From the NCBI GenBank assembly GCA_905147135.1, contig LR990045.1:15166173-15230172 (forward strand): a stretch of DNA of 64,000 nucleotides, written 5' to 3'. This document shows, in pieces, positions 847 through 42,103 of the stretch (the stretch's first letter is position 1; the number at the start of each line of letters is the position of its first letter). Source of the stretch: Blastobasis lacticolella. Lineage: Eukaryota > Arthropoda > Insecta > Lepidoptera > Blastobasidae. A model generated the notes under the pieces. It saw nothing but the letters and a program-made list of their open reading frames with translations, searched no databases and was not told where the DNA came from. The translations under genes and the position numbers were made by a program.

Positions 847-969
847 TTACAAGTAATCTGCATTTCTAGCTATTATTAGATCTTTCCTATCTGTAACACC
901 TGGTGTACGTGACGAGAATTGCTTATTTTTTTGTAGCACCGAATAATTACACACGTTCAGGTAACTGAC

Positions 970-1518
970 CTCCTGTTCCTTGCGGGCCAACCACTGCTGG
1001 AAGGCCTCCTGGCGCTTGCGCTCATTACGCTCGCGCTCCTCCTTGGCCGTGGTGGTCGTCGACAGCGAGGCGACGGAGAGGCGGAACGTGTCCGCACCGT
1101 CCTCGCGGTACGTGCGGTTCCGCGGTGTTGGGTCCAAGTCTTCGAGGACAGGCACGTCGTCCAGTCGGCACGACTTGCGCTTCACACTTCCGGACGAGGT
1201 CGACGACGCGCGCCCGCTCAGCGTGGGTGTCGAAGTGCTCCGGTACGTCGAGTGCGGGTGCGGCGTCACGTCCGCCTCGTCCACGCACGACTCTGCCAGC
1301 AGCGACGTCGCCGAGTGCGCCTCCACCGGCTCGATGTAGATAGCCGGGTTTATGTACCGCGTCTTCGTTTTCTTCGAGCCGAGCGACTCCGAGTCACTGT
1401 AGTACTGCACGTGCTCGCCCGCCCCGTCGAACACATGGCCCGACCCCTTCCGCAGCTCGTACTCCGGCCGGTTGCGGGCGCTGTCACCGTAAGTTCCTTT
1501 CTCCATTTCCCTTTGCAT
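970..1518 (-). CDS. 5' coding exon of an unrecognised, coiled-coil-ending protein
   Basis: I do not recognise this gene. An ATG at 1518 (or the next Met, four codons on) opens 183 codons of polar, Ser/Thr-rich sequence. Visible features are an acidic SDSES patch, a RYINPAIYIEPVE stretch, a low-complexity Ser/Thr run, and a highly charged C-terminal segment (EERERNERKRQEAFQQWLA) that should be helical or coiled-coil. The exon is much more GC-rich than its surroundings, as expected of real coding DNA. It ends after codon 183 at a good splice donor (GAG|GTCAGT, 969-964 on the minus strand), so the frame running on to 847 is probably intron. Downstream exons would lie below 970, in transposon sequence or outside the window. 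The AFQQWLA-type segment resembles parts of CCDC34/CCDC181-like proteins, but this is only a guess. Confidence 0.55.
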
Positions 1519-7111: not shown

Positions 7112-7740
7112 GTGTTCCGGTTTTCAAAATCAATTATGCCCTATATGTTGCCCAGGCTTAATAAATACACAATAAAAAAATTACCGGAGATTAGCGTGTC
7201 CAAACAAATTTTAAAAATGCTTATTGTATTACTATTTCTTCATTAACAGGAACGTTTTCCATGTAGAAATTTGTAAATCATAATCGGAAAAACTCATCAA
7301 CATGAAAATAAATTTTTTTACGTGCAAAATTGGTTGTCAATTTGAAACTTTATCTGTTAGATACATAAGCATTTAAAACACGCCCTTTTTTCTGCACTCG
7401 CATCAGATGTTTTTATACCTATAACGATTGAGTTTGGTGACCAAACAATAATCCTTCTCTCATCATCATCATCATCATCATCATCGTCATCACTTGCCCA
7501 ATCAAAAGAACATGTTATATTCAAAATATGAATATAGTTACTGTTGGTCTCACTTTTTGACACAATCCAACACAAAAATCATGACGTAATCGCGACTCAA
7601 ACACGTTCACTCTCTGACAACGCCTATAAGTAACTCGCGAATAAACAGCTTTGACCCAACACGTTCTATAAATGAAATTAACGTGGTCGTCTTTGAACGA
7701 TAAGAGTTTGACAACTTTACGTCGGTTCCTTTAGGCCTTG
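7112..7740. other. non-coding stretch with an ATC microsatellite
   Basis: AT-rich sequence with a TCA/ATC trinucleotide run at about 7460-7492. I see no gene. The minus-strand frame across the run is low-complexity and not convincing. Confidence 0.5.
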
Positions 7741-7999
7741 GTAACACAATACGCAGCGTGATTATGAGGTGAATAGCCCTCATTAGTTATGAGATGACTC
7801 ATCTCTATATAGTAATCTCTACATATGCTACATCGATACATTAGCAATTTTTTGTAAAGAAACATATTTCAGAAATAAAAAATTGTTATAAGACCATGAA
7901 TCTGATTGCTTTACTCTTATGGCAGCAATGGTTGCCTTAAAAAAGGATACACTGATCAAAACTGATAGTTCTTTTATTCTCAGTAGATTACATGTTTGT

Positions 8000-8446
8000 T
8001 CAACAATCTAATGTCAACAAATGCAAGTCCATTTTGGTCAGATGAATGCGAAATTCGACGAACATTGAACTATTTGATTTAATGGTATTCAAAAAGTAAA
8101 ACAAGACATTATGTATGAAAAAGTAATGATTTGGATTTTGGATACTAAAATTTCGTTGTTGTCTAACTTTTAAAACTGTCAGCGGCACGGAAACAGATGC
8201 CGTATGTACTAAAGAATACAAGCACATGTCGATCACACAATATGTTGAAGTTCTACCTACACCATTATCACTATGAATAATAATTGGACCGGGTAACGAC
8301 TGCTTGGTCTGTATCGCTTCTGTTAAATTTTGTTGGCCCTGCCTGTTGACAGCTAGCAGAAATTCAAGAAAAAGTTTTGAATCCGGAATACCATTTTCTA
8401 GCCAGTCCAAATATTTGAAATGGTAACAATAATTATTGTTACCATT
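8000..8446 (-). pseudogene. truncated bracovirus-type PTP, catalytic Cys replaced by Ser
   Basis: This is the C-terminal half of a tyrosine phosphatase domain. Recognisable parts are FKYLDWLENGIPDSKLFLEF (the WPD-loop region, with the Asp position changed to Glu in WLE), then IIIHSDNGVGRTSTYC, the phosphate-binding loop. That loop normally reads HC-x5-R; here the Cys is Ser while the Arg remains, so phosphatase activity is not expected. The usual C-terminal helices follow (TVLKVRQQRNFSIQNPNHYF). The N-terminal half is absent: homology stops at a perfect palindrome (8419-8446), which supplies the first codons of the open frame. It is a broken gene, probably silent. Confidence 0.75.
8419..8446. 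repeat. perfect 28-bp palindrome at the PTP truncation point
   Basis: Each half reads AATGGTAACAATAA outward-in, and the 28 bases are perfectly self-complementary with no loop. It lies exactly where PTP homology of the minus-strand fragment ends, so it may mark a recombination or deletion point. Confidence 0.85.
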
Positions 8447-8512
8447 CAACTATAATCTAACCACTGAGTTATTCATATATGTGTCAGAGAGTTAATAAGG
8501 AAACCGAGCATC

Positions 8513-8547
8513 TATAAATGGCGATTTACAGTTAAAAAGACATCAGT
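8513..8547 (+). promoter_or_regulatory. core promoter of the intact PTP: TATA box plus initiator
   Basis: TATAAA at 8513-8518 and the arthropod initiator TCAGT at 8543-8547 (in CATCAGTTG). The distance from TATA to the initiator A is 32 nt, the normal spacing. Predicted 5' UTR is about 80 nt. Confidence 0.6.
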
Positions 8548-8623
8548 TGTAGCTCATTCCTGAACCCTGCTCGATTTCTAAGTAAATATCAACCCAAACT
8601 CTTTTGTACCTGCAATAATTGAA

Positions 8624-9448
8624 ATGGGGAATGGAAATTTTAAGACACTGAGTCGCAGTGGTCTCGTTAAATTGATCGACCGTACCAACGCCAGTGAATT
8701 TCTTTGTGATGAGAACGACAACATTATGAAGATTGAGACACAAGACATGACGTGCTTTGAACGAAGCCGTGTACGTTTTCCAGAAGAAGAAAACTCTGAG
8801 GATTATATGAACGCTAGTTACGTTGATGGTTTCAAGAACTCTAAGAAGTACATCGTGTGTCAAGCACCTACTATAAAGAACACCAGTTCCTACTTCTGGA
8901 GAATAATATGGCAGCACAGAACTCAAATCATCGTTATGTTGTGCAGTACTATTGAAAATGGCAAGACCCACTGCTATCGTTATTGGAGTCCAGTAGAAAA
9001 AGTAACGATGCAATTTGGAAAATTTAAGATAGCTACGGTCAAGGTTGATTCGACACATCCAGGCTTCATAATTACGCACTTTGAGGTGACGAATGAAGAT
9101 GGTGACTGTTTGAAAGTCACTCACTTGTTGTACGAAAAATGGCAAGAACACGATTTATCTCCTGACGAATTCAGCTTCATTGACTTGGTACTAACGACAA
9201 AGTTATACGGCCAATCAGCTAGTGATACGCATACAAGCCCGATAGTTGTTCACTGCAATAGTGGGCTAGGAAGATCCATGGCGTTTTGTGCCATAGACAT
9301 CTGTTTGTCAAGATTAGACGATACAGGGAAACTCGACGTATTTTCCACGGTATTAAAACTCAGAAAGCAAAGACCCAACTGTCTATCTAATGTCAATCAG
9401 TACATTTTTATCTATATGGTTTTGTACTATTATATTGTCATATCCTAA
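8624..9448 (+). CDS. bracovirus-type protein tyrosine phosphatase, intact
   Basis: A 274-residue single-domain, intronless tyrosine phosphatase, the usual length for bracovirus PTPs. In parasitised caterpillars such proteins act in host cells, including haemocytes, and are thought to disturb signalling. Motifs in order: substrate loop DYMNASYVDGF (60-70), YIVCQAPT (76-83), core strand IIVMLCS (102-108), then the signature HCNSGLGRS (210-218) with catalytic Cys211 and Arg217 present. The WPD loop reads KWQEHDLS (172-179), so the general-acid Asp is Glu or displaced. The first Gln of the Q-loop also seems to be Ser. It may be weakly active or only substrate-binding. The start is the first ATG after the predicted initiator. 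There is no signal peptide. An antisense frame over 8543-9151 is a shadow. The match to bracovirus PTPs is from family knowledge, not a search. Confidence 0.85.
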   Translation: MGNGNFKTLSRSGLVKLIDRTNASEFLCDENDNIMKIETQDMTCFERSRVRFPEEENSEDYMNASYVDGFKNSKKYIVCQAPTIKNTSSYFWRIIWQHRTQIIVMLCSTIENGKTHCYRYWSPVEKVTMQFGKFKIATVKVDSTHPGFIITHFEVTNEDGDCLKVTHLLYEKWQEHDLSPDEFSFIDLVLTTKLYGQSASDTHTSPIVVHCNSGLGRSMAFCAIDICLSRLDDTGKLDVFSTVLKLRKQRPNCLSNVNQYIFIYMVLYYYIVIS

Positions 9449-9459
9449 ATCATGCTCAT

Positions 9460-10050
9460 TATTTTTTGCTCAATGAATAACTACTTTTGCACGCCTCATA
9501 AGCGAAGCGTTGAGGTAGTGCTCTACTCTCGACATGTCAGAAAAAACAGTTTTTCGAAACTTGAATTAACTTTTTTATCACTTATATTGCACTTATAAGA
9601 TAATGTAAGTGCACATATCACGAAAAATTATGTGTTAAACACGTAAAATATAATTTGACAACAATTATTTAGTTTAACACAGTAAATAAATTAGTTAAAA
9701 ATAATTTTTCTTGGACGTTCGTATGTCTGTGTGTATGGATCCCCGTATGTGGCAGGGAAATTGATCGAAAAAATTATCGTATCGGAATAAATTTTTTTTT
9801 ATCATTTATAGTATCACTTGGCGCTGCTTCTCAATTAATACGACTGCTTAATTCACTACCGTTCAATAATTATTCATAAAAAAACTAAAACACGACTGTG
9901 TATTTGTATATCTATACATATTTATATTTTTTATTAAATTATAGTTTTTATTAATGTATACCAAATGTTTAGCTATAGATGAATTAGGCTAAGATTTATG
10001 TATAATTGAAGTATTTTTATTTTGTCAACAGTCATTAAGATTAACAATCA
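9460..10050. other. AT-rich stretch downstream of the PTP, possibly viral flank
   Basis: No frame of note. AATAAA occurs near 9685, about 240 nt after the PTP stop, and could serve as its polyadenylation signal. Whether this belongs to virus or host is not decided by the sequence. Confidence 0.35.
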
Positions 10051-10052
10051 TG

Positions 10053-11766
10053 TGTAGGGTGAGATGTCGAACAGTGAACCAGTAGTACACAGTTAGCCAT
10101 CATTAGTATCACCATAAAACAACGTTGCCAGATCGTGCAGTAAGCGTTATCGTACTTGGTTTTTACCGCTCTTCTTGCTTTCCAGTTGGTAGCGAGCTCC
10201 AGTGCAGAACGCCCGCGACTCAGGGATTTTTGTGATTTTCGGCGTAAAAACACGGAAAATCCTAAATAGTAATTTTTAGATTTTCAATGTTATACTGCAT
10301 CTTTTAAAAGTAATGTTTGTTTCTATTTCTGTACTGAATATCGTTGCATTGTTTGGTCGTACATTCATGAATCCTACTTTGATGATTAATTTTTTGATGA
10401 ATTAAATATTAGTAGAGGTGTGTGGTACATAGTGACCCACTACACCGGCACGAACAGTGAGCCACCGCTTCACTGTGTACAACATCAAAATTCTGATTTT
10501 CTTAATTATTTTATCTTTAATATTCATATAAATCAGCTACCGGTTATTTTTTTTAAATGATTCCATTTAAAAATGCGAGTAGGCAATATCAGGCTACTGC
10601 TGTCAGGCTTCTTGAATAGGTACATGAATTGGCTGGACGTCGCGTCTTGGTTCGCGTGGTTTTAATTTAATGAACTCTACCTCTATCCCACTTCTACATG
10701 TACCCTACCCCTATCCGCGCCCTAACCGAGCTCTATCCGTACCCAACCCCCCTCAAGTCACTAATATCCACTGCAAGGCTCCACCAGTGAATCGAATCCC
10801 GACTCCATCACTTACTTTTTTCTACATAAATTTTTGTAGGGGATACCCCTATCCTACCACACCACCACTGTCGGTAGACGCCTAAAATATAATAGGACCA
10901 CGATAAGTCCATATTGACTGACAGTAGTAAACAGTATAAAGTGTGTATATGGCAATAATCTGGGGATAATCTTTCCTTGTTACTCCTTCTAGTAAACATT
11001 CAGTTATTTGGTCACTATTAGCTTGAACTTTTGTCTAAATTATTAATCATGCTAAAAATTATTTTCCCTTTTTAATTGTGTGCAAAGTATTCAAAAATAT
11101 TTTTCATAACTCACGAAAATAAACATACCTCCAGAAATCAAATTGTTTGTTATGACTTTTAAGAATGACGTTCTATGACGGATAAAAAACTTGGCATAAG
11201 TTAGGATACAAAGATTTTAATTTTTTTAAATAAGCAATTTAGTCTTATTATAGATCTTAAGAACTCTAGTGTAGCTAGTTGACTATTTATTATAATACAA
11301 CCTTAAAATATATCATCAATGACTGTAATTAGAAAATAGGTTAAGTTATGTTGTTATTGATTTATAGTCTTCACAGTTATTTTGGTAAATAAAACTTAGG
11401 TACTTTACACATTTATAAAGAATGTATTATTATCTGATTTATCTACTATGCTAATAACTACAACAAGGAAACGTTAATAATATTGATCTCATTCGTCGGG
11501 CTCACTGTGTACTCCCCGGTTTGCTGTAGACCAACCCCCTGGTTCAATGTGTGCCACGAGGTGGACACAATGAGCCATTTCCCATCTTTCAAAAAATCTG
11601 CATCATCATTTTATCTATAAATCTTTTTCCATTAACTTATATACAAAATGAGAGTCAGATATATTACGCAATGACTAGACCACAAAACATTTCATGATAT
11701 TGACAAACTTATGAGTTATGATTGTTTAACTTTTTTGTGGGTCACTGTTCGACACCTCACCCTACA
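10053..11766. mobile_element. 1.7-kb terminal-inverted-repeat element, non-coding
   Basis: The left end begins TGTAGGGTGAGATGTCGAAC and the right end is its near complement (ends CACCTCACCCTACA). The inverted repeats are about 30 bp with few mismatches. Inside are variants of the motif CACTGTGTAC near both ends (about 10480 and 11508), which look like subterminal binding repeats, and a pyrimidine-rich patch at 10670-10870. No transposase frame is seen, so it is probably non-autonomous. I see no clear target-site duplication, so no superfamily is assigned. It begins 600 bp downstream of the PTP. Confidence 0.65.
11140..11200 (-). repeat. short repeat shared with 26648-26695
   Basis: About 50 bp, including GACGTTCTATGACGGATAAA, recurs inverted at 26648-26695. 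Origin unknown. Confidence 0.45.
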
Positions 11767-11769
11767 ACA

Positions 11770-12740
11770 TATCCAAATTTTTTTAAACTTTTAATAAACT
11801 TAAGGATGTAAGCAGTAAATATTTTCGTCATTATTTTTCATCTCAAATCTGCGAAATCATGAAGTGACGAAATAAAAGAAACGATGTTCGATCGTTAAAT
11901 TAGATCAGCTTTGATCAGTTTACAGTAAAAATGAGATCTAATCTAGGATCTAATAGTTTCTGTAAAATACCGTCAGTAGATTTTTCAACTCAAAACACCA
12001 AAACAAACACAATCTGCAGCTGTTAGATGAAAATGTGATGGAGAATCCAATGATCTGATTGTTCTCAGCGAAAATGGACTATCAAGTTTAAATTCAGCAG
12101 ATATTACTTTGCGCTATTGTATACGACATTTTCATCGCGCTGGATTTTCACGTCACATGAGTCACTATTGGATAAGAATACATAATGCGTTCAAGAACGT
12201 TAGTAAGAAACCAATTTATTCAACGAGACATTTACGAGCGCTTTTATATCGTAAAACATAAACTCATAAATAGTTCAAAAAAGCAGAGTATTTTTGTATG
12301 GAAAATTCAGTGGTCAAAACCCAAAACTCCACGCCAACTCCCACAATTTACGTGTTTTAAAAGTTTCTAGAGTTGCTGATATGCATATGACGTAATTAAC
12401 CACAATGTACCATGAAATAAAAATAATTAACACATTTAAATTGTTTTGACTGTATTTGGTAATGCAACTTTTGGTATGGTTTTCCTGTTTTTGTGACTCT
12501 TGTCAAATGCCTACACCATCATTTTAAATCATCAATAATTTTACTCATATTTACTTTTACAGCTCAAAGAAGTTATACATTGATCATTATGTTTCAGCTG
12601 TCACTGTATAGTAGAAATTTGTTCAAAATTTTAATTCTAATTTCAAAAAGCTATACTTTACATTTCATTCGTATGATATTCGCTTTTTACACGCTCGGAG
12701 TAAGCAATTCGTTCAAGAAATAAATTCACTTTCATTAACT
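11770..12740. other. unrecognised AT-rich stretch
   Basis: No assignable gene. A degraded plus-strand frame near 12065-12240 looks protein-like in composition but matches no family I know, and several stops interrupt it. It could be an old transposon or viral remnant. Confidence 0.3.
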
Positions 12741-12744
12741 TATT

Positions 12745-12890
12745 GTGACGTCATCGATTTGGCTGTTGATGTTTTGCCAAGTCAACTAACTTTCTAGATC
12801 GAAGTCTTTTCTGTTTATTTCGAATAATCCTCTTAGCACGCTTCTCCACCGAATCCAAAGCAGCTGGCTGATTCATCCCAATGGCAGCAG
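12745..12890 (-). pseudogene. C-terminal scrap of a LINE reverse transcriptase ORF
   Basis: The minus strand reads LDSVEKRAKRIIRNKQKRLR, the pattern found just after the RT domain of Jockey/CR1-group LINEs. A second, inverted scrap of a related LINE follows at 12910-13300. Confidence 0.5.
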
Positions 12891-40188: not shown

Positions 40189-41034
40189 CGCTATTGTGGA
40201 GGGCGACGAGTTCCGGAACGGCATTCTGGAGGTGAACAGAGTGAGCGATCGACTCATGGTGATCAAGGCGCAAATTGAGAGTATAACAACCAACCTCATT
40301 AGCGCCTATGCTCCCCAGTCCGGCTGCGCCGACACCGAAAAGACTGCCTTCTGTAACAGTTTCGTAAATACCCTGCCACGTATACTATCCTCCGAACAGA
40401 TTGTGGTTGGTGCGGACCTCAACGGTCATGTGGTCCAGAGGAGCGAGGAATTCGGTCGGGTGCACGATGGATTTGGTTATGGCCAGCGAAACAGTGAGGG
40501 AGAAGATATTCTCCAAACCTCACTGGCTGCCGAATTAATCGTAGTCAACACCTTCTTCCAGAAAAGACCAGAACACCTCCAAAACGAACGACCTACAAAA
40601 GTGGCCCTCACCAATCACAGATCGATTATCTGCTGAACCGAAGAAGTGTCATCGGTCACGTATCCCAGTGCAAGATCATCCAGGGGGAATACCTCACTAC
40701 ACAGCACCTTTGTCATGATCGTCCGGGTGAGTAGTAGACGGCCTACGGCAGAACGCTGCGCTACGCTCTGAGCAGCACGAGCCAAAAGTTCATGGAGGCA
40801 GCCGAAAGCCTCGATTGGAGCGCAAAGGGTGAAACCTTCAATGAGCTTCGGTGTCACTATCAGAAATCCATCCTCAAACTCGGACGAACAGTACTCGGCA
40901 CGTCGAAAGCGTCCGACGAATTGACAAGGATACGGGGTGGTGGAATGGTGAGGTGCAGGAAGCGGTCAGGGACAAAAAGGCATGTTTCAAGAAATGGCAG
41001 CACAGTAACTCACTATCGGATAAGGACGTGTACT
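40189..41034 (+). repeat. left arm of a near-perfect inverted duplication in the RTE element
   Basis: It equals the reverse complement of 41253-42103 apart from a 5-bp length difference near 40703. The two arms are about 850 bp with a 218-bp spacer. The encoded frames are identical in both arms, so the duplication is recent (or an assembly fold-back). Confidence 0.85.
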
Positions 41035-41252: not shown

Positions 41253-42103
41253 AGTACACGTCCTTATCCGATAGTGAGTTACTGTGCTGCCATTTCTTGA
41301 AACATGCCTTTTTGTCCCTGACCGCTTCCTGCACCTCACCATTCCACCACCCCGTATCCTTGTCAATTCGTCGGACGCTTTCGACGTGCCGAGTACTGTT
41401 CGTCCGAGTTTGAGGATGGATTTCTGATAGTGACACCGAAGCTCATTGAAGGTTTCACCCTTTGCGCTCCAATCGAGGCTTTCGGCTGCCTCCATGAACT
41501 TTTGGCTCGTGCTGCTCAGAGCGTAGCGCAGCGTTCTGCCGTAGGCCGTCTACTACTCACCCGGACGATCATGACAAGGACTCGGTGCTGTGTAGTGAGG
41601 TATTCCCCCTGGATGATCTTGCACTGGGATACGTGACCGATGACACTTCTTCGGTTCAGCAGATAATCGATCTGTGATTGGTGAGGGCCACTTTTGTAGG
41701 TCGTTCGTTTTGGAGGTGTTCTGGTCTTTTCTGGAAGAAGGTGTTGACTACGATTAATTCGGCAGCCAGTGAGGTTTGGAGAATATCTTCTCCCTCACTG
41801 TTTCGCTGGCCATAACCAAATCCATCGTGCACCCGACCGAATTCCTCGCTCCTCTGGACCACATGACCGTTGAGGTCCGCACCAACCACAATCTGTTCGG
41901 AGGATAGTATACGTGGCAGGGTATTTACGAAACTGTTACAGAAGGCAGTCTTTTCGGTGTCGGCGCAGCCGGACTGGGGAGCATAGGCGCTAATGAGGTT
42001 GGTTGTTATACTCTCAATTTGCGCCTTGATCACCATGAGTCGATCGCTCACTCTGTTCACCTCCAGAATGCCGTTCCGGAACTCGTCGCCCTCCACAATA
42101 GCG
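41253..42103 (-). repeat. right arm of the inverted duplication (original endonuclease region)
   Basis: This arm is in the natural orientation of the element and joins smoothly to the linker (41252-41035). It is therefore the parent copy of 40189-41034. Confidence 0.85.

Follow-up and report, generated by a model that had tools for sequence, protein, structure and literature searches.

The window analyzed here is a stretch of 64,000 nucleotides of the moth Blastobasis lacticolella (C6:15166173-15230172), which belongs to a contig of 21.9 Mb in an assembly of 577 Mb and 45 contigs. It contains two sequences of the protein tyrosine phosphatase (PTP) type, an intact gene termed PTP1 and a remnant termed PTP2, and both are located inside a single insertion (7246-12814) that has defined ends and a target-site duplication (TSD). 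The intact PTP1 lies in a bracovirus-type segment, which probably reached the germ line of the moth from a virus circle that a parasitic wasp had injected. The features of this insertion are listed below in window coordinates, together with the evidence for each; C28, C2 and C24 denote copies of the segment elsewhere in the genome.

7243..7245, left 3-bp target-site duplication, TTA (direct reading)
7246..12814, plus strand, bracovirus-type segment with both ends present and an interior that has lost some parts and gained later repeats (ends common to copies with different flanks)
7246..7270, plus strand, left end ACAG-...-GAAATTT, resembling half of the bracovirus host integration motif (motif as given in the available text of PMC8460044)
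8000..8443, minus strand, PTP2, a 5'-truncated PTP remnant in which Ser replaces the catalytic Cys at codon 8270-8272 (sequence comparison, tree)
8424..8448, junction left by an internal deletion of ~1.2 kb when compared with copies C28, C2 and C24, at a palindrome (copy comparison)
8513..8548, plus strand, predicted core promoter upstream of PTP1, with a TATA-like element (8513) and an arthropod-initiator-like element (8542-8548) (read by eye)
8624..9448, plus strand, PTP1, an intact 274-aa protein tyrosine phosphatase related to PTP-Y (open reading frame, Pfam, tree, structure model)
9489..9931, repeat present elsewhere in the genome, occupying the place of ~6.4 kb that are missing relative to the C28 unit (copy comparison)
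9932..10056, plus strand, piece of the right part of the segment, 98.4% identical to the C28 copy (copy comparison)
10053..11766, transposon-like insert of ~1.7 kb with terminal inverted repeats (29-nt arms, 93% complementary) (sequence)
11763..12814, plus strand, right part of the segment, 97.8% identical to the C28 copy, ending ...TAACTTTC-N16-CTGT (copy comparison)
12815..12817, right 3-bp target-site duplication, TTA (direct reading)

The PTP genes and the segment that carries them

PTP1 is an intronless frame of 274 codons (8624-9448, plus strand) that matches the Pfam family Y_phosphatase (E 1.3e-65), and its predicted structure model and PDB match agree with a PTP domain. The active-site motif reads HCNSGLGRS, with the Cys encoded at 9254-9256 and the Arg present. 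The WPD loop reads W-Q-E, such that Glu stands for Asp here as in the four nearest relatives, and ~18 residues that carry the KNR motif in those relatives are absent from PTP1. The initial annotation had described an intact, intronless frame of bracovirus type with its catalytic Cys and Arg kept; the frame and these two residues are confirmed, but the WPD loop is altered and the KNR stretch is gone. The altered loop and the missing stretch would predict a phosphatase activity that is weak or absent. The bracovirus affiliation also held. A database search returned 23 matches, the named ones being bracovirus or wasp (Cotesia) proteins with the exception of one Euphydryas protein, which in the tree falls with bracovirus PTP-A. 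Moreover, PTP1 is sister to P0001-P0004, which are bracovirus PTP-Y proteins, with support of 97/93 in a tree that was built without a broad set of cellular PTPs. The name PTP-Y is taken from a database entry, since "PTP Y" does not appear in the text of PMC3573978. Relative to the clades of Serbielle et al. 2012 (PMC3573978), as far as the available text describes them, PTP1 is similar in that Cc_ptp.y and two other PTPs of bracoviruses form its sister group, and it differs by the lack of the ~18 KNR-motif residues.

PTP2 was the second PTP sequence of the initial annotation, and a PTP-like stretch is indeed present, but it is on the minus strand, runs from 8443 down to a stop at 8000-8002 and comprises the 3' half of a PTP only. 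Its motif is HSDNGVGRT, with Ser for Cys, its WPD region reads W-L-E-N, and in the tree it groups with P0010/P0013, a subfamily other than that of PTP1. The available part of PMC3573978 describes PTP EX as having Ser or Gly for the catalytic Cys and an altered WPD Asp, and by residue criteria alone PTP2, with its Ser and without the WPD Asp, resembles it; no protein named EX was among the database matches of the PTP1 search or of a later protein search.

What defines the insertion as a unit? The window unit and those of C28, C2 and C24 have sharp common ends and differing flanks. The unit in C28, which together with that of the window is assigned to family A, measures 11.0 kb, and over 6.2 kb of it C2 and C24 are 99.98% and 99.5% identical to C28, respectively. 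The window copy is shorter by internal deletions and, when mapped on the C28 unit, consists of 7246-8424, the ~1.2-kb deletion, 8448-9488, the repeat, 9932-10056, the transposon-like insert and 11763-12814. Additional genes of the C28 unit are a third PTP and, near it, a 183-codon frame (L029:2807-3358, minus strand) for which there was no Pfam match. A larger segment on C22 encodes two ankyrin proteins in addition to at least five stretches of the PTP type, and such a combination of PTP and ankyrin genes is typical of some bracovirus segments.

The initial annotation had also placed the PTP sequences close to ordinary host genes, in agreement with a CCDC34-like frame at 847-1518 (minus strand) that has 74 database matches, all of them lepidopteran wherever an organism is named. 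A CCDC34 tree of 45 rows did not place the host in a particular family. The transposons of the window were characterized by their repeats and open reading frames (ORFs). One identical 126-aa frame, by eye of the RTE-retrotransposon type, occurs twice in the window at 40256-40636 (plus strand) and 41656-42036 (minus strand), ~1.0 kb apart and in opposite orientation.

Segment ends and target-site duplications

The ends of the family A unit in C28 read (A)ACAG-N16-GAAATTTA on the left and TAACTTTC-N16-CTGT(T) on the right. The available text of PMC8460044 describes the bracovirus host integration motif (HIM) as inverted borders of 8 nt (TAAATTTC/GAAATTTA) and 5 nt (CTGGT/ACCAG), which enclose a stretch lost upon integration. 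With the 8-nt and 5-nt parts compared separately and without their spacing, the C28 ends agree with the published borders at 8/8, 7/8, 4/5 and 4/5 positions, and the left 8-mer of the window agrees at 7/8. Judged by sequence, the ends thus appear to be a close but not perfect match to the published motif. In a second group of insertions, family C, the ends read ACAGGGATG... on the left and ...AACTTTCCTGT on the right, and those of family D are similar. A search of 7.7-10 kb for integration motifs had been suggested, and ends of the HIM type are found at 7246 and 12814, inside a lepidopteran chromosome.

A fundamental question is how such ends were joined to host DNA. In all insertions for which both ends were read (35/35; families A, C and D), the 3 bases before ACAG are the same as the 3 bases after CTGT. 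The duplication was observed in 5/5 insertions of family A, 21/21 of family C and 9/9 of family D; for A and C together, shuffled pairings gave a mean of 3.15 and a maximum of 10 of 26, and there was no 4-bp repeat. One family A copy has ACAA instead of ACAG at its left end. The sample consists of insertions with both ends locatable, such that degraded ones are under-represented. Family A is represented by 5 copies; for C26 and C8, the stretches read did not include a right end.

Two routes for the integration of circles are proposed in the available text of PMC8460044, one via viral phage-type integrases and the other via host retroviral-type integrases. Since the 3-bp duplication is uniform, it points to staggered strand transfer of the retroviral-integrase or DDE type rather than to tyrosine recombination of the XerC/D type. 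It therefore fits the route via host retroviral-type integrases, with the reservation that germline copies, and not somatic integrations, were analyzed. In the mechanism that we propose, the virus circle would open at the HIM with loss of the spacer between its halves, as published for somatic integration, and strand transfer would then attach the ACAG and CTGT ends at host cuts offset by 3 bp, which would generate the 3-bp duplication.

Copies across the genome: repeated transfer or spread within the moth

The initial annotation had assumed a single transfer, which proved too narrow. A genome search with PTP1 gave at least 143 matches, a lower bound given that 141 of 869 candidates were scored. 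The right-end motif AGATCGANNNCTTTYCTGT has 113 exact occurrences in the genome, that of the window insertion among them, and its reversed control has none. When up to 2 mismatches are allowed, the end motif ACAGGRAYGWTTTYSATGTMGAA occurs at 215 places (control, 0), but this count includes the right ends of some families and 113 is for this reason the safer figure. Approximately nine clearly different left-type end sequences are found among the first 100 of the 215 places. A single transfer is ruled out by these searches, taking PTP1 matches, copies of the unit and the right-end motif count together, and the 113 right-end motifs likely mark further such insertions belonging to several segment types. 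Those that were read contain PTP genes and, in one case, ankyrin genes as well.

Family A comprises five full-length copies, including that of the window, with 96-100% protein identity, and its other copies are broken. In family C, protein identity reaches 98% or more in 40 copies, of which 36 are listed without an internal stop, and its PTP frame is open in all of the 30 best-scoring copies, which were read. The ~40 copies of family D, of which some are partial and 14 have equal scores, are 72-80% identical to the protein of family C. The copies compared differ by nearly zero to about 10%; in the left part, seven family A copies differ by 0.08-9.8%. For family C, 55 private changes were counted in 73,472 bases compared (0.075%) across 26 of the 30 loci read, the remaining four (L077, L081, L083 and L085), which have a different structure or a diverged 3' part, having been set aside beforehand for this and the four-gamete count below. 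The lepidopteran mutation rate is near 3e-9 per site and generation, and the private changes would then correspond, as a rough figure, to an order of 10^5 generations. A cluster at C8:16535341-16558468 contains eight PTP matches on one strand with spacings of ~2.8 and 4.2 kb, and this could be a tandem amplification within one segment.

Did these copies enter one by one from wasps, or did a few of them multiply inside the moth? We judge repeated transfer to be moderately likelier than transposition within the moth. In family C, 22 of the 78 pairs formed by 13 shared single-nucleotide polymorphisms (SNPs) exhibit all four gametes (26 copies), as expected of a recombining source. Across 30 copies, the family C PTP has 6 nonsynonymous and 7 synonymous changes (6/13 nonsynonymous; below neutral, p 0.008), and this deficit of nonsynonymous changes is as expected if the variation arose in a functional virus. 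Between the PTPs of family A and a further family, B, dS is 0.52-0.55 and dN/dS 0.28-0.29, which indicates that constraint had acted on the PTP genes during some period prior to insertion. Repeated transfer is further favored by the PTP frames of the young family C copies, which are for the most part open and constrained, by this constraint between families, by the presence of several segment types and by related proteins with 77% identity on two chromosome-sized contigs of Cydia pomonella.

The alternative hypothesis is that few bracovirus entries were followed by growth of a transposon-like family, in which ACAG/CTGT ends were mobilized by a host DDE or retroviral-type integrase to yield 3-bp TSDs and deletion derivatives. 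This is a serious possibility, although the less probable of the two. In its favor are the exact TSDs in 35/35 insertions, the 40 family C copies that reach 98% protein identity or more and among which a deleted form of ~6.87 kb is frequent, and groups of copies that are alike in the kinds and numbers of their stops, for example five of the 50% family with 1 TAG and 1 TAA each (compared by kind and number of stops). A stretch resembling the U2 small nuclear RNA (snRNA) also favors it (Rfam E 3e-5, below gathering), which is full length in 17 family C copies, partial in five B copies and present in other repeats too, including one of 10 copies. However, reticulate SNPs in family C are difficult to obtain across chromosomes without much gene conversion, the family C PTP is open in the best-scoring copies as described above, and differences among family A copies are mostly private. 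Moreover, the ORF lists (ORFs from 80 aa or 150 aa) of the units L010, L029, L035 and L036 contain no transposase or integrase frame, such that only non-autonomous movement would be possible for them. In a stronger form of this idea, which we put forward tentatively, bracovirus segments would now be a self-spreading transposon family, and a resident integrase of the retroviral type would insert any DNA that lies between host-integration ends, with a 3-bp duplication each time. At L107:605-975, a U2-snRNA-like sequence is partly duplicated within a bracovirus-type segment, and it is also seen in two other repeat families.

Several observations weigh against derivation of the insertions from wasp-borne circles by repeated transfer. 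The closest known donor protein, PTP-Y, is only 45% identical to PTP1. Family C fits the published borders more loosely than family A, and the assignment to the motif draws on published borders that are short, together with gene content. No intact family C circle junction was found in the genome (exact pattern, spacer 32-62), so any evidence for a circle origin is indirect, and a search of viral contigs for bracovirus records with PTP1, P0002, P0101 and P0107 confirmed no relative. The commonest form of family C is an internally deleted derivative with truncated ankyrin and PTP genes that resembles the product of transposon amplification, and the U2-snRNA-like stretch is common to these short C copies, B copies and the further 10-copy repeat. 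Finally, the family C gene ank2 has 7 nonsynonymous changes and 1 synonymous change (p 0.84; 9 usable of 30 loci) and thus no constraint, and when PTP and ank2 are pooled the result (13 nonsynonymous of 21) is borderline, with p 0.15 against an expectation of 0.74 and p 0.05 against 0.794. In the reading that we favor, integration likely occurred many times and with several segment types, and most insertions would descend from repeated or mass germline integration of one wasp-virus lineage.

Fate of the inserted genes and relation to known systems

Has the moth put PTP1 to use? The initial annotation had considered that an intact frame may signify purifying selection, a view that the comparison of copies does not bear out. 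Among the 5 intact family A copies there are 17 variable sites (16 of them private), of which 15 are nonsynonymous and 2 synonymous in what is a small sample; the neutral expectation for the nonsynonymous share is 0.80 (p 0.88). Family A looks neutral after insertion, with no sign of constraint in this small sample, and the open PTP1 frame therefore does not show domestication. The hypothesis that the moth keeps PTP1 for a function of its own, for example interference with other viruses or wasps, is also opposed by the 7/8 differences between the window copy and C28 that are nonsynonymous, by the deletion and interruption of the segment around PTP1 and by the four further intact copies at 96-97%; we consider it improbable. 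PTP1 is probably a relic with a predicted PTP fold, the frame of which would be open since too little time has elapsed, and after insertion the PTP family of the window would drift without visible constraint.

A further concern, already raised by the initial annotation, is that wasp or virus DNA from a parasitized specimen was assembled into the moth genome. Somatic integrations are frequent in parasitized caterpillars according to the available part of PMC8549517, but the insertions examined reside in contigs of chromosome size, where every one of them has flanks and a TSD of its own, and many copies have private changes, stops or nested repeats, which makes such an artefact very unlikely. 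That PTP1 is an ordinary moth PTP retrocopy that merely resembles bracovirus PTPs can be dismissed almost entirely, for although some resemblance is expected given that bracovirus PTPs descended from insect PTPs, the named matches of PTP1 are bracovirus or wasp proteins save for the one Euphydryas protein of the PTP-A group, the segment ends are common to copies, and a related segment has viral-ankyrin-like neighbors.

Heisserer et al. 2023 (msad050, cited in PMC11676520) reportedly described HIM-mediated germline integration of polydnavirus circles in Lepidoptera. By this account, both cases involve a linear bracovirus-type segment with HIM-type ends in a lepidopteran chromosome. The present moth differs by its 113 right-end motifs, ~40 near-identical copies of one segment and TSDs in 35/35 insertions, some of which may already be contained in that paper. 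Transfer of bracovirus circles into lepidopteran germ lines has, in the portions available, been published before (PMC4574769, PMC5704228). Gasmi et al. 2015 (PMC4574769) similarly reported bracovirus genes fixed in moth genomes and proposed HIM integration as the route; the available text reports no complete-circle integration, whereas the present segment retains its two ends and carries a PTP that drifts with no visible constraint. That text does not contain "ptp" and contains "tyrosine phosphatase" once, in a reference title. The somatic integrations of CvBV in Plutella (PMC8460044), as presented in the available text, share the 8 + 5 inverted HIM borders and the proposal of retroviral-type host integrases for some circles, and they differ in being somatic and in the 5-nt border, which is ACCAG/CTGGT there and AACAG/CTGTT in family A of the moth. 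The terms "target site" and "tsd" do not occur in that text, and a literature search on TSDs with bracovirus or polydnavirus integration gave, by title and start of abstract, no paper on TSDs of bracovirus circles. As far as the literature was searched, a uniform TSD of 3 bp and so high a load in one genome look new.

Bracovirus-type PTPs of the A and B kinds were also observed on chromosome-sized contigs of Euphydryas editha (P0011, P0106) and Cydia pomonella (P0098, P0099). In the stick insect Bacillus rossius redtenbacheri, a PTP (P0102) on a 53.8-Mb contig is 58% identical to family C and is placed among Glyptapanteles bracovirus PTPs in the tree; a transfer outside Lepidoptera and an assembly problem are both possible.

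How circles enter caterpillar chromosomes is debated between viral phage-type and host retroviral-type integrases, according to the available text of PMC8460044, and the uniform 3-bp duplication seen in dozens of complete germline insertions is a direct fingerprint of the joining chemistry. If the segments have instead become self-spreading, what was virulence DNA of a wasp would now be a parasite in the genome of the very moth that the wasp attacks. The more than 100 insertion ends, which differ in age, would turn this genome into a fossil record of the wasps and viruses of one moth, and they would be evidence that uptake into the germ line is not always a rare accident but can reach a massive scale.
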